Virus record (IMG/VR): IMGVR_UViG_3300021371_000091
Span: 1-25,833 of that record
Length of the DNA stretch: 25,833 bases
DNA from: a virus
Direction: 5' to 3' (one strand)
Shown here piece after piece: positions 1,782 through 4,418 of this stretch (its first letter is position 1; each line of letters begins with the position of its first letter). Below the pieces are notes generated by a model. It worked only from the letters and a program-made list of their open reading frames with translations. It made no database searches and was not told the DNA's origin. The translations under genes were made by a program, and so were the position numbers.

Positions 1782-1909
1782 TTTTCTTCTTCCTTATCTT
1801 TTTTCTTTTTCTTTTTCTTTTTGCCAAAGATAGCTTCCCAGTTATCTTCATATCTTTTTGTATTCTCTTTCCTTCGACCTGAGCCTTTGCCACCATGCCA
1901 CTTAGTCAT
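1778..1909 (-). CDS. WHGGKGS-type small basic protein, 43 aa
   Basis: The protein reads MTKWHGGKGSGRRKENTKRY, then EDNWEAIFGK and a run of eight lysines mixed with a short acidic end (KDKEEEK). The WHGGKGS opening followed by an NW..IF segment is a recurring small protein of marine phages with no function known to me. AGGA lies 6 bases before the ATG, and the start overlaps the end of the upstream gene by 8 bases. Its TGA overlaps the GTG of the nuclease gene. The lysine run is encoded by repeated AAAAAG units and could vary in length. Confidence 0.75.
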   Translation of the reverse strand: MTKWHGGKGSGRRKENTKRYEDNWEAIFGKKKKKKKKDKEEEK

Positions 1910-2396
1910 AACTTATCCTTTGAAAATTAACAGCCTTATCTAATTTAGATAACAACTCCTTAGCCTTCATAAAATCTTCAGGTATACATCTTAATAATTC
2001 TTCTATGCTAAATATCATCATGTCAGGCTCATCTTTGTGTATCTTTAATAAACTAGGTTTCTCATCATCAGTATCACAAACTAAAGCAGTCTTCTTATCA
2101 AAGTTAAAACATCTAGTATTTGGTTGTATTCTCATATAACCACTTTGTTCACATTTCTTATTAAGTGAATCAAAGGCTCTAGTCATCATTTCAACCATCT
2201 TAATCTTTTCTTTAACATGACCTTTGTAAAGTGCATCCTTAAGCATAGATTCTGCTCTACAAAACTTAATCTCAAAATCTACACCCAACATCTTAAATAT
2301 TCTTTTCCTAGAACCCCACCTCTCAAAAGATTCAGCTTCATATATTCTTAACTTCTTCAATTCACTTTCAAAAGATTCATCTAAATATGTCTTCAT
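1902..2396 (-). CDS. Unrecognised protein, 164 aa
   Basis: I do not recognise the family. The protein is mostly helical and charged, with many Lys and Glu residues. It begins MKTYLDESFESELKKL and has scattered cysteines, a segment with CFNFDKKTALVCDTDDEK (about residues 94-111), and a C-terminal helix with SKLDKAVNFQRI. I place the start at the ATG at 2396, which has GGAG 9 bases upstream; an in-frame TTG at 2411 lies before that site and is unlikely. The ATG overlaps the TGA of an upstream aromatic-rich frame. Lying between a primase-helicase and small nucleases, it may belong to the replication group, but that is only context. Confidence 0.75.
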   Translation of the reverse strand: MKTYLDESFESELKKLRIYEAESFERWGSRKRIFKMLGVDFEIKFCRAESMLKDALYKGHVKEKIKMVEMMTRAFDSLNKKCEQSGYMRIQPNTRCFNFDKKTALVCDTDDEKPSLLKIHKDEPDMMIFSIEELLRCIPEDFMKAKELLSKLDKAVNFQRISYD

Positions 2397-2578
2397 TGGT
2401 TTGGTCTCCAATCGTGAAATTCATAGTGGTTTGGGTTGGTTGCTTTAGAAAAGCAAACCAAACCAACCAACTTTTTGATAATTTGGGCTAAAAAACCAAA
2501 CCAAAACAGACCAAAACCAAACCAAAACCAAACCATATCAAAATACCTCATTATCGAAAGATTTTGACTGGTAGCCAT
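2393..2578 (-). CDS. Doubtful aromatic-rich ORF across a repeat tract, 61 aa
   Basis: A frame of 61 codons starts inside the end of the primase-helicase gene (41-base overlap) and ends with a TGA that overlaps the next gene's ATG (ATGA). Its middle, MVWFWFGFGLFWFGFLAQII, is the translation of GGTTTGG/GGTTTTGG repeats and looks like one very aromatic membrane segment. The overlaps at both ends favour a gene; the repeat-driven composition and weak start (AAGG only 2 bases before the ATG) favour an untranslated DNA element or a leader whose translation couples the neighbouring genes. I cannot decide between these. Confidence 0.3.
   Translation of the reverse strand: MATSQNLSIMRYFDMVWFWFGFGLFWFGFLAQIIKKLVGLVCFSKATNPNHYEFHDWRPNQ
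2397..2535. repeat. CCAAA/CCAAAA repeat tract, possible origin or hairpin element
   Basis: Between the primase-helicase gene and the next gene, the plus strand carries CCAAA and CCAAAA units in close series at 2496-2506 and 2511-2534. More CCAAA/CCAA units lie at 2453-2470, and the opposite orientation (GGTTTGG, GGGTTGG) appears at 2397-2404 and 2428-2440. The inner part can fold: TTGCTTT (2440-2446) pairs with AAAGCAA (2450-2456) around an AGA loop, and bulged GGTT/CCAA pairing extends it. Strand-biased iterated repeats beside a primase-helicase gene suggest an initiator-binding or origin site; this is inference. Confidence 0.6.
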
Positions 2579-4418
2579 AGCCTTCTTTGTAATGCACTAA
2601 ATCATGTGCTTTTAAATCCGCTAATCTAGTCTTTAACGTACTATCTTTAATATCCATTCTAGCTGCTAATATTGAATACTTAACCCAAACACTAATAGGG
2701 TCATTTGGCTCTTTTTCCTTCTGATATTCTTCTATAGCATCTAATGTTTCTTTTCTTGCTGATGTAAGCATCATCTCTTTAGGAGACTCTAGCGTTAGTT
2801 TCAGTACACCTGAAGTAACATTACTAAAGCCAAAGACTTCTACTTCATGGAACTTAAAGTTCATAGGTTGTATTGGTCTACCATCTTTAACAAGTGTTTG
2901 GTCAACAGATACAAGCATAGCATCATCATCACCGCTTCTCTTAACCCTAAATTCATAGTCAAGTGCTGCTGGTAATACAGAACTTCCTCTTGCTCTTGCT
3001 GAAGACCCATGACCAGTATGATGTACTATCACTATAGAAGCATTAAACTCTTCTTTAAGCATGTCTACACGCTGTATAAAGGTATTCATGTCTTTAGTGC
3101 TGTTCTCATCTAATCCATAGTTTCTAGCAAGGGTGTCGATGATAATCATGCCTATACCATTGTTTTCAGCTTCTATATCTCTACAAACCTGTTGCAAGAT
3201 AGCAAACTCCTCATCATCACCTATTCTTGAACCTCTATTAGATACAAGTAAAGGTTTCTTATCTAAATTCATGCTATAGAATTGCTCATAGGCTTTTATA
3301 CGTCTACCAACTGCATTTGTGCCTTCTCCTGCAAGATAAAGTACAGTTGATGGTTTGGTTTCATATCCATAGAAATCCTTACCTGTAGCAACTGCACAAC
3401 CCATAGCAATAGCTACAAATGATTTACCTGTCTTAGGTGCACCAAATATAGAAGTAACAGTTCCACGTTCTATGCATCTATCCACCAACCAATCAGGCTC
3501 AGTAATATTAGCCATGATTTCATTAACTGTTTGGAAATATAAACTTCCTTTTGGTCTTTTTGCTGTATTGCTTGTTATGTAATCTTCCAATGATTTAGAG
3601 TCTGCAAAATAACCTGATTCATACGCATCCCATAAATCATCTTTTTCATTAAAATCTTTTGGTGGTTCAGCAATTAAAACACTACAACCATTTTGTTTTA
3701 GGTGACTAGAAATCTCATTAGCAACCTTCTTACCAGCTTCATCATTATCAGGAAATATCCAAACCTCTCTACCATAGATAGGTGACCAGTCAGCTTTTTG
3801 CCAACTATTAACACCACCATGCCATGTACAAGCATCTCCATCTTTCCTTATAGCTTCACATCCACGTAACGCTTTTTCACCTTCATTGATAATAATAGGT
3901 TTATTAGGAAAGTTATTGGTGTAGTAAATAGGTAATAACCCTTCAGGTCTTCGCATAGACCATGAACCATCAGGATTCATACTGAAGGGTGCATACTTTT
4001 GTTTGATGGGATGTCCATTAGGAAACCTCATAACCCAAAAATTAGTAGAATACTGCACTTTTACTATTGCTTGAGAATGAAGTTCCCTCATTTGGACTTT
4101 TGTAAAAGACCTTGCATTGCCCTTGTTAGTGCTATTTGGGGGAGTCACACTAACGCTGAGTAAGGAGTCATTAGGCAATGCTTGGTCATAACCAAACTGT
4201 TTTAAAATTGTTGACACATCTTCATTGAGGTATTTTATTAAATCTACAACCCCACCACCAAAACCTTCTTCAAAGTTATAGAAAAGGCCTTTTTCTAGGT
4301 TTAGAACCATACTCCCATGAGTATTCCATCTCATTTCTGTAGATGAAATACTCTTAGGCTCACCTAATAGCTGCTTTGCTACTTCAGGTGCGATTCTTTG
4401 CCAATCTACGCTTGACAT
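2538..4418 (-). CDS. Primase-helicase (Toprim plus RepA-type AAA ATPase)
   Basis: A 626-aa protein with three parts. Residues 1-100 resemble a primase N-terminal domain (KGLFYNFEEGFGGGVVDLI) but contain no cysteines, so the zinc site seems lost. Residues about 170-270 form a Toprim domain: an acidic INEGEKA, then FPDNDEAGKK and a late acidic motif. Residues about 310-530 form a RepA/RecA-like helicase: Walker A GAPKTGKS (about 326-333), Walker B MIIIDTLARN (about 425), and the IVIVHHTGH sensor (about 465). The C-terminus looks like a winged helix. It should prime and unwind DNA at the phage fork. The ATG follows the TAG of the SSB-like gene with no gap and no obvious ribosome site, so translation is likely coupled. 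Confidence 0.9.
   Translation of the reverse strand: MSSVDWQRIAPEVAKQLLGEPKSISSTEMRWNTHGSMVLNLEKGLFYNFEEGFGGGVVDLIKYLNEDVSTILKQFGYDQALPNDSLLSVSVTPPNSTNKGNARSFTKVQMRELHSQAIVKVQYSTNFWVMRFPNGHPIKQKYAPFSMNPDGSWSMRRPEGLLPIYYTNNFPNKPIIINEGEKALRGCEAIRKDGDACTWHGGVNSWQKADWSPIYGREVWIFPDNDEAGKKVANEISSHLKQNGCSVLIAEPPKDFNEKDDLWDAYESGYFADSKSLEDYITSNTAKRPKGSLYFQTVNEIMANITEPDWLVDRCIERGTVTSIFGAPKTGKSFVAIAMGCAVATGKDFYGYETKPSTVLYLAGEGTNAVGRRIKAYEQFYSMNLDKKPLLVSNRGSRIGDDEEFAILQQVCRDIEAENNGIGMIIIDTLARNYGLDENSTKDMNTFIQRVDMLKEEFNASIVIVHHTGHGSSARARGSSVLPAALDYEFRVKRSGDDDAMLVSVDQTLVKDGRPIQPMNFKFHEVEVFGFSNVTSGVLKLTLESPKEMMLTSARKETLDAIEEYQKEKEPNDPISVWVKYSILAARMDIKDSTLKTRLADLKAHDLVHYKEGYGYQSKSFDNEVF

Follow-up and report, generated by a model that had tools for sequence, protein, structure and literature searches.

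Genes and repeats at the locus

The window, by which we mean the whole stretch of DNA analysed, is a 25.8-kb virus record, from a marine phage, that carries nearly all of its genes on the minus strand. The genes and repeat features of the locus itself lie on this strand. A primase-helicase gene (626 aa, 2538..4418; assigned by Pfam, a PDB profile, and a structure model) is followed by a gene for a protein of 163 aa without a known family (1902..2393, ATG at 2393; no PHROGs family and just a weak Pfam match). Between the stop codon of the former and the start codon of the latter lies a repeat element which extends from about 2425 to 2535. Read along the minus strand, the element begins with an array (2535-2492), continues through an AT-rich spacer, and ends with a hairpin (2472-2425). 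The array (2492..2535; Tandem Repeats Finder and motif counts) consists of four GGTTTGG-type units with a period of 11 bp, the third of which is degenerate (GGTCTG). The spacer (2473..2491) is evident from the sequence and has similar counterparts in relatives. The hairpin (2425..2472; folding and hairpin score) carries the array unit on both arms (5′ arm GGTTGGTTTGG, 3′ arm CCAACCCAAACC), which are joined by the loop TCT. A lone CCAAACC, found by motif count, is located just ahead of the start codon of the next gene (2398..2404). It is replaced by CCCAACC or ATGAACCAACC in relatives with the unit GGTTGG and was not seen in every group.

The original prediction had described a tract of CCAAA and CCAAAA repeats at 2393-2578. 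The tract is real and its repeat counts are beyond chance, while its bounds proved to be those of a 61-codon chance open frame from the mechanical ORF list (2393..2578), which is non-genic. A coding frame across the tract was rejected, since the listed ORF merely results from the repeats. The window contains 13 copies of CCAAACC, six of which are located at 2398-2534 (including that at 2398-2404); shuffles have a mean of 1.74 and a maximum of 6 over the whole window. Ten of the 47 AACCAA sites of the window are inside the tract. The score of 74 obtained by Tandem Repeats Finder for 2492-2535 (period 11 bp, 4.1 copies) is the highest in the window, and in a scan of the entire sequence for repeats the top score, too, came from the tract (16.9 vs. 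6.9 elsewhere). It is not wholly correct, as had been claimed, that the rest of the window is free of similar low-complexity DNA, since Tandem Repeats Finder reports a TTTTCT tract at 1782-1822. The repeats in opposite orientation that had been noticed on the left are the second arm of the hairpin. When folded as single-stranded DNA, the hairpin has a z score of −2.8 (minus strand) or −3.9 (plus strand), and the window hairpin score is 31, compared to a control mean of 8.4. An intrinsic terminator was also considered and rejected, the tract having no terminator-like site.

The 626-aa protein matches AAA_25 (1.2e-36) as well as Toprim_3/Toprim_2 in Pfam. It comprises a Toprim primase half, a RepA-type (AAA_25) hexameric helicase, and a predicted C-terminal winged helix. 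RepA of RSF1010 (1g8y) was the sole solved structure matched in a PDB search with a profile from 25 sequences (E 1.2e-10), and it was likewise the top structural match of the helicase model (Z 23.4, 2.4 A, 223 residues). The C-terminal domain is predicted to fold as a winged helix, and the top match of its model is MntR (6kta; Z 10.4, 1.7 A, 66 residues).

The original prediction had proposed cumulative GC skew as a test. The skew falls steadily along the window, where almost every gene has the same orientation, and for this reason it is uninformative about an origin. In the record of phage CRP-406 the cumulative curve peaks at base 1 and reaches its lowest point shortly before the record stops.

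Occurrence of the element in related phages

The first scan yielded 26 viral loci, 24 of which were read at the gene end. All 24 have an array and a hairpin near that end (in L026 the gene extends past the match and the element was read separately). Wider scans and named phages followed; the later loci are among the matches listed in these scans, and more exist. The position of the densest 6-mer was then recorded in 150-base windows for loci with a readable stop codon and at least 150 bases after it; 43 of 47 genomic loci entered the genomic scan. Among the viral or phage matches listed, which are not all independent, 98 of 119 loci have their densest repeat where the gene ends (3′). In 10 of the 21 exceptions the peak is about 500 or 1000 bases further on, directly past inserted genes, and another locus (L062) begins in the same way before its contig ends. 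In the remaining exceptions, either a stronger repeat is found at another place or there is little array (L026, L093, L094, L106, L115, L116, L120, L126, L129, and L139).

Removal of near-duplicates left 77 loci among the matches listed (40 viral or phage, 37 genomic). With thresholds that were chosen after the data had been seen (array score 7, hairpin score 20), both array and hairpin are present 3′ of the gene in 31 of 40 viral or phage and 13 of 37 genomic loci of this set. The hairpin exceeds the 95th percentile of control stretches from the same locus in 35 of 40 and 19 of 37 loci, respectively; many of the other 18 genomic loci have remote helicases. Among 18 named phages for which the 3′ region was read, nine carry the element: CRP-406, CGphi29, 1N2-2, JLBYU37, Haito_Bas83, rolling, GRNsp27, RHph_Y3_1, and Vibrio phage 1.210.O, in which it follows an inserted gene. 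No element was found 3′ of the gene in the other nine (Thora, Mae-JY30, Vibrio phage 168E36-1, Manatee Spring phage, fKuEco01, K1G, SETP13, BPS11Q3, and UTEC10). Kagunavirus, Jerseyvirus, and Mycobacterium phage Thora are among those without it. Three of the carriers (JLBYU37, rolling, and Haito_Bas83) infect E. coli, and the listed host of rolling is K-12 MG1655. The original prediction had looked to relatives for conservation of the repeats beside this gene. The element is kept there in many of them and is inherited together with the helicase half (see below). The proposed reading as a possible origin or initiation site is well supported by the sequence comparison, since numerous diverged phages carry the element 3′ of this helicase.

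The gene downstream of the element varies among phage groups. In one family of loci (family 1), inserted genes may separate the helicase gene from the element, which stays beside the downstream gene. One or two such genes between primase-helicase and array were translated for five loci (L050, L052, L098, L100, and L071). They carry DPAW/DPPW motifs, and we take them to be MT-A70 methyltransferase-like. Such inserted genes are listed also for L065, L066, L068, L069, and L072. The inserted genes end in WGNEV, similar to the FDNEV with which the helicase ends, as though a short shared sequence had mediated the insertion.

Several arrays were seen at other positions. A second, stronger array of ACGGCT (12-14 copies per 150 bases) precedes the helicase gene end by about 3.1-4.1 kb in L106, L115, and L116. 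ATTTGC or AAAGGC arrays (5-9 copies per 150 bases) are found about 1.7-4.2 kb after the helicase gene in L019, L021, L022, and L026. In Manatee Spring phage (L191), a GGGACA array of nine copies is situated about 1.5 kb past a repA-like gene and away from the helicase gene. A SAR86 single-cell genome contig (L145) encodes a helicase with 48% identity and carries the same kind of element (AGGGAAGTT), which hints that some members of the family may infect SAR86. In CRP-406, a hypothetical gene of the annotation, CRP406_2, shares sequence with the element (record positions 161-487, corresponding to L028 4131-4457), and its start may be misannotated.

Diversity of the word and its inheritance with the helicase half

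The short word that forms the array unit differs between groups of phages: GGTTTGG in the window group, GGTTGG in L009-L015, GGTCGG/GGTTGG in L017, TTGGGTG in L019, GTGGGGT in L021, AAGGAA in L023, CGGAA in L024, and AGGGAAGTT in L026. The wider scans and the named phages added GGATTGG, GTGTGT, GGCTGGAAA, GGGGACA, GGTACA, CGTAAC, CGTAC, GTTAG, GGAAC, CGTTCC, GCGGGACA, and GGGGGAGA, and GGGACA is also among the units of relatives. G-G structures on the G-rich minus strand, which had been suggested for the tract, find no counterpart in many of these units (CGTAAC, CGTAC, GTTAG, GTGTGT). They have no ladder of G runs and keep the architecture, and a G-quadruplex element was rejected on these grounds.

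The word changes in array and hairpin together. This was analysed for 49 non-redundant loci with a hairpin score of at least 22 and an array of sufficient length. The sharing of array 6-mers is 0.288 with the hairpin of the same locus, compared to 0.044 with the hairpins of other loci and 0.090 with shuffled sequences. Summed over loci, it is 14.1, compared to 2.4 +/- 0.5 in 10,000 re-pairings, the largest of which reached 4.9. The own hairpin ranked first in 31 of the 49 loci, and p 0.01 was reached in 34. The base pairs of the apical stems also differ among phages, and stem pairs change on both sides. Since the hairpins aligned poorly with MAFFT, these pairs were counted with the loop as anchor. 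The first five pairs are perfect by construction in such a count, so that it is their variety, together with pairs 6 and 7, that is informative (hairpin scores of 22 and above; L121, L127, L166, L172, L177, L181, L183, L185, and L186 were left out). TTTA is the commonest loop (12 of 45) and is found within CCTTTAGG in 10 of 45. The distance from unit to unit is most commonly 11 bp, followed by 10 and 12 bp, and thus close to one turn of duplex DNA (L121, L127, L172, L177, L181, L185, and L186 were left out of this count).

The primase and helicase halves of family 1 proteins have separate histories, and a sliding-window scan places the apparent exchange point at about residue 260-300, where the correlation with the word changes. 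We compared array distances with the distances of protein parts over 60 family 1 loci with a readable downstream protein (L062 was left out as its array lies past the contig end). The distance between units correlates with that of the helicase half (residues 291-626) with r 0.81, compared to 0.34 for the primase half (residues 1-270) and 0.32 for the protein of the next gene. The partial correlation of the helicase half given the other two is 0.78 (permutation p 0.001). Controlling for the helicase half leaves 0.03 for the primase half (p 0.34) and 0.13 for the downstream protein (p 0.08); all three p values ignore relatedness and serve as a guide only. Natural exchanges agree with this. In each of 30 pairs that combine similar primase halves with dissimilar helicases, the two words differ (mean distance 0.87, minimum 0.77), while in 13 pairs with unlike primase halves and like helicases the word is mostly shared (mean distance 0.16, largest 0.83). 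These correlations and exchanges indicate that the word and the helicase half travel as a module, even though the downstream gene is equally close to the array.

By analogy with Rep of SaPI or Cch2 of SCCmec, the winged helix would be the natural reader of the word. That it reads the word alone is unsupported, since many winged-helix exchanges keep the unit: in 88 pairs with like helicase and unlike winged helix the word is mostly kept (mean unit distance 0.18), as illustrated by L055/L056, where the helicases are 99.6% and the winged helices 40% alike. Winged helix and word change together in three pairs (L101/L103, L101/L102, and L023/L103). The helicase core retains a partial correlation of 0.51 once the winged helix is accounted for, compared to 0.24 for the winged helix once the core is accounted for; with other domain borders, the values are 0.49 for the core vs. 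0.16 for the winged helix. In the closest pair of groups (the window group vs. the L009 group), 12 of 21 fixed differences fall into the last 81 residues and none into residues 296-500. No alignment column separates phages with GGTTTGG from those with GGTTGG in two clades at once.

Interpretation and comparison with known systems

Readings other than an origin were weighed and are less likely. The transcribed array and hairpin could form an RNA element that regulates the following gene; the array might, for instance, pair with the hairpin or else with the CCAAACC at the start codon. A complementary unit is indeed found at the start codon in several groups, and in family 1 the element directly precedes a gene for a protein of 164-169 aa, even when methyltransferase-like genes are inserted upstream. 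Against this, the element stays while the following gene differs among phage groups, the unit does not track the protein of that gene (see the correlations above), the spacing of one turn suggests duplex DNA, and Rfam has no family at gathering score in the tract (one miRNA match far under the cut-off was taken as chance). We regard such an RNA element as rather unlikely.

A site at which terminase initiates packaging (pac/cos) would fit phages CRP-406, CGphi29, 1N2-2, and RHph_Y3_1, in which the element is about 0.6-2.5 kb before the small terminase gene (for 1N2-2 and CRP-406, this distance was counted across the ends of the record). In JLBYU37, however, the terminase is about 5 kb plus a lysis block away, the constant neighbour of the element is the helicase, and it is the helicase half that the unit tracks, which makes a packaging site most unlikely. 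Phased direct repeats combined with inverted repeats would also suit an operator or partition site of a separate small regulator, and a regulator-like gene is located upstream in 1N2-2 and CGphi29. No regulator gene common to all groups was seen, however; the gene that element-bearing phages have in common is the helicase, and we consider this reading very unlikely as well.

The interpretation which we favour, with a probability of roughly 0.8 and on the basis of sequence comparison, is that the tract is a phage replication origin, which would be read by the primase-helicase encoded just upstream and be inherited as a module with its RepA-type helicase half. It builds on the computed layout and position of the element, the way in which array and hairpin vary together, their shared inheritance with the helicase half, and the kinship of the helicase. 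Points against it are the nine named phages that lack the element, the 18 genomic loci whose hairpin does not exceed the controls, the persistence of the element beside the downstream gene when genes are inserted in family 1, and the winged-helix exchanges that mostly leave the word as it is. Binding, opening, priming, and origin activity are what we infer. The helicase half (RepA-type ring and C-terminal winged helix) would recognise a short word, specific to each phage, in the duplex DNA of the array, the units of which are about one helical turn apart. Binding would melt the AT-rich spacer and load the ring. The hairpin, with the word on both arms, would fold on the exposed strand and might fix the start of priming or a second loading event, a role analogous to that of the ssi hairpins in RSF1010.

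More tentatively, the element may represent a general class of origins of dsDNA phages. In such origins, one short word would occur twice, in phased duplex sites and in the arms of a foldable hairpin, so that the initiator would meet it in double-stranded as well as in hairpin form. The word would make up one exchangeable module together with the helicase half. The words would turn over fast, perhaps driven by nucleases that target origins, by satellites, or by competing phages, and the ring may contribute to specificity no less than the winged helix does. The element provides a sequence rule for locating the likely origin in many phages with a RepA-type primase-helicase, and the many natural pairs of helicase and word offer a means to learn how such an initiator chooses its site. 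They also raise the question why the words change so fast. With the E. coli phages JLBYU37, rolling, and Haito_Bas83, the element becomes workable in laboratory strains.

The oriV of RSF1010 (IncQ) shares the helicase family, RepA (1g8y) being the best match in sequence and structure. It also combines iterons and hairpins in one origin, according to the available part of PMC4234260. There, RepC binds the iterons, RepA unwinds and exposes the stem-loops ssiA/ssiB, and RepB′ primes at these sites. RSF1010 uses three proteins (RepA, RepC, and RepB′), in contrast to the single fusion protein found here, which includes a Toprim primase half. No RepC-type initiator family was detected among nine window proteins scanned. 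The phage units also differ from RSF1010 in being short, about 11 bp apart, and repeated in the hairpin arms.

The origins of SaPI (rep-ori) and SCCmec (cch2) resemble the phage element in having short repeats directly 3′ of a helicase gene, the product of which has a C-terminal DNA-binding domain (predicted in our case), as described in the accessible sections of PMC7581432. SCCmec has inverted repeats, too, and its iterons are the 5-bp AAGTG. The inverted repeats are reported in these sections not to be needed for binding, and the same sections contain no account of a joint diversification of array and hairpin. The helicases are of the DUF927 or D5/Primase_Cterm class in these elements, whereas that of the phages is of the AAA_25/RepA type.

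In plasmid pRN1, a stem-loop directly 3′ of the primase-helicase gene was shown to be both necessary and sufficient for origin function alongside the replication operon, and a similar stem-loop origin has been proposed for phage BIP-1 (PMC4234260, available part). Like the phage element, this stem-loop follows the replication gene and is kept in structure and not in sequence. The available text describes the pRN1 origin as being without iterons and attributes to it an archaeo-eukaryotic primase and an SF3 helicase, compared to Toprim and AAA_25 here.

As the accessible portion of PMC8263062 reports on the RepA_N/ori modules of PLE satellites and the nuclease Odn, the DNA-binding part of the initiator changes together with the origin, and they work only as matched pairs. 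This recalls the pairing of word and helicase half, although, according to the same portion, RepA_N is devoid of primase and helicase and the iterons are about 30 bp long. A search of the open-licence PubMed Central literature retrieved no description of the combined arrangement. The phage element is composed of parts that are known from these systems (iterons, hairpin, 3′ position, and matched pairs) and unites them in one arrangement.
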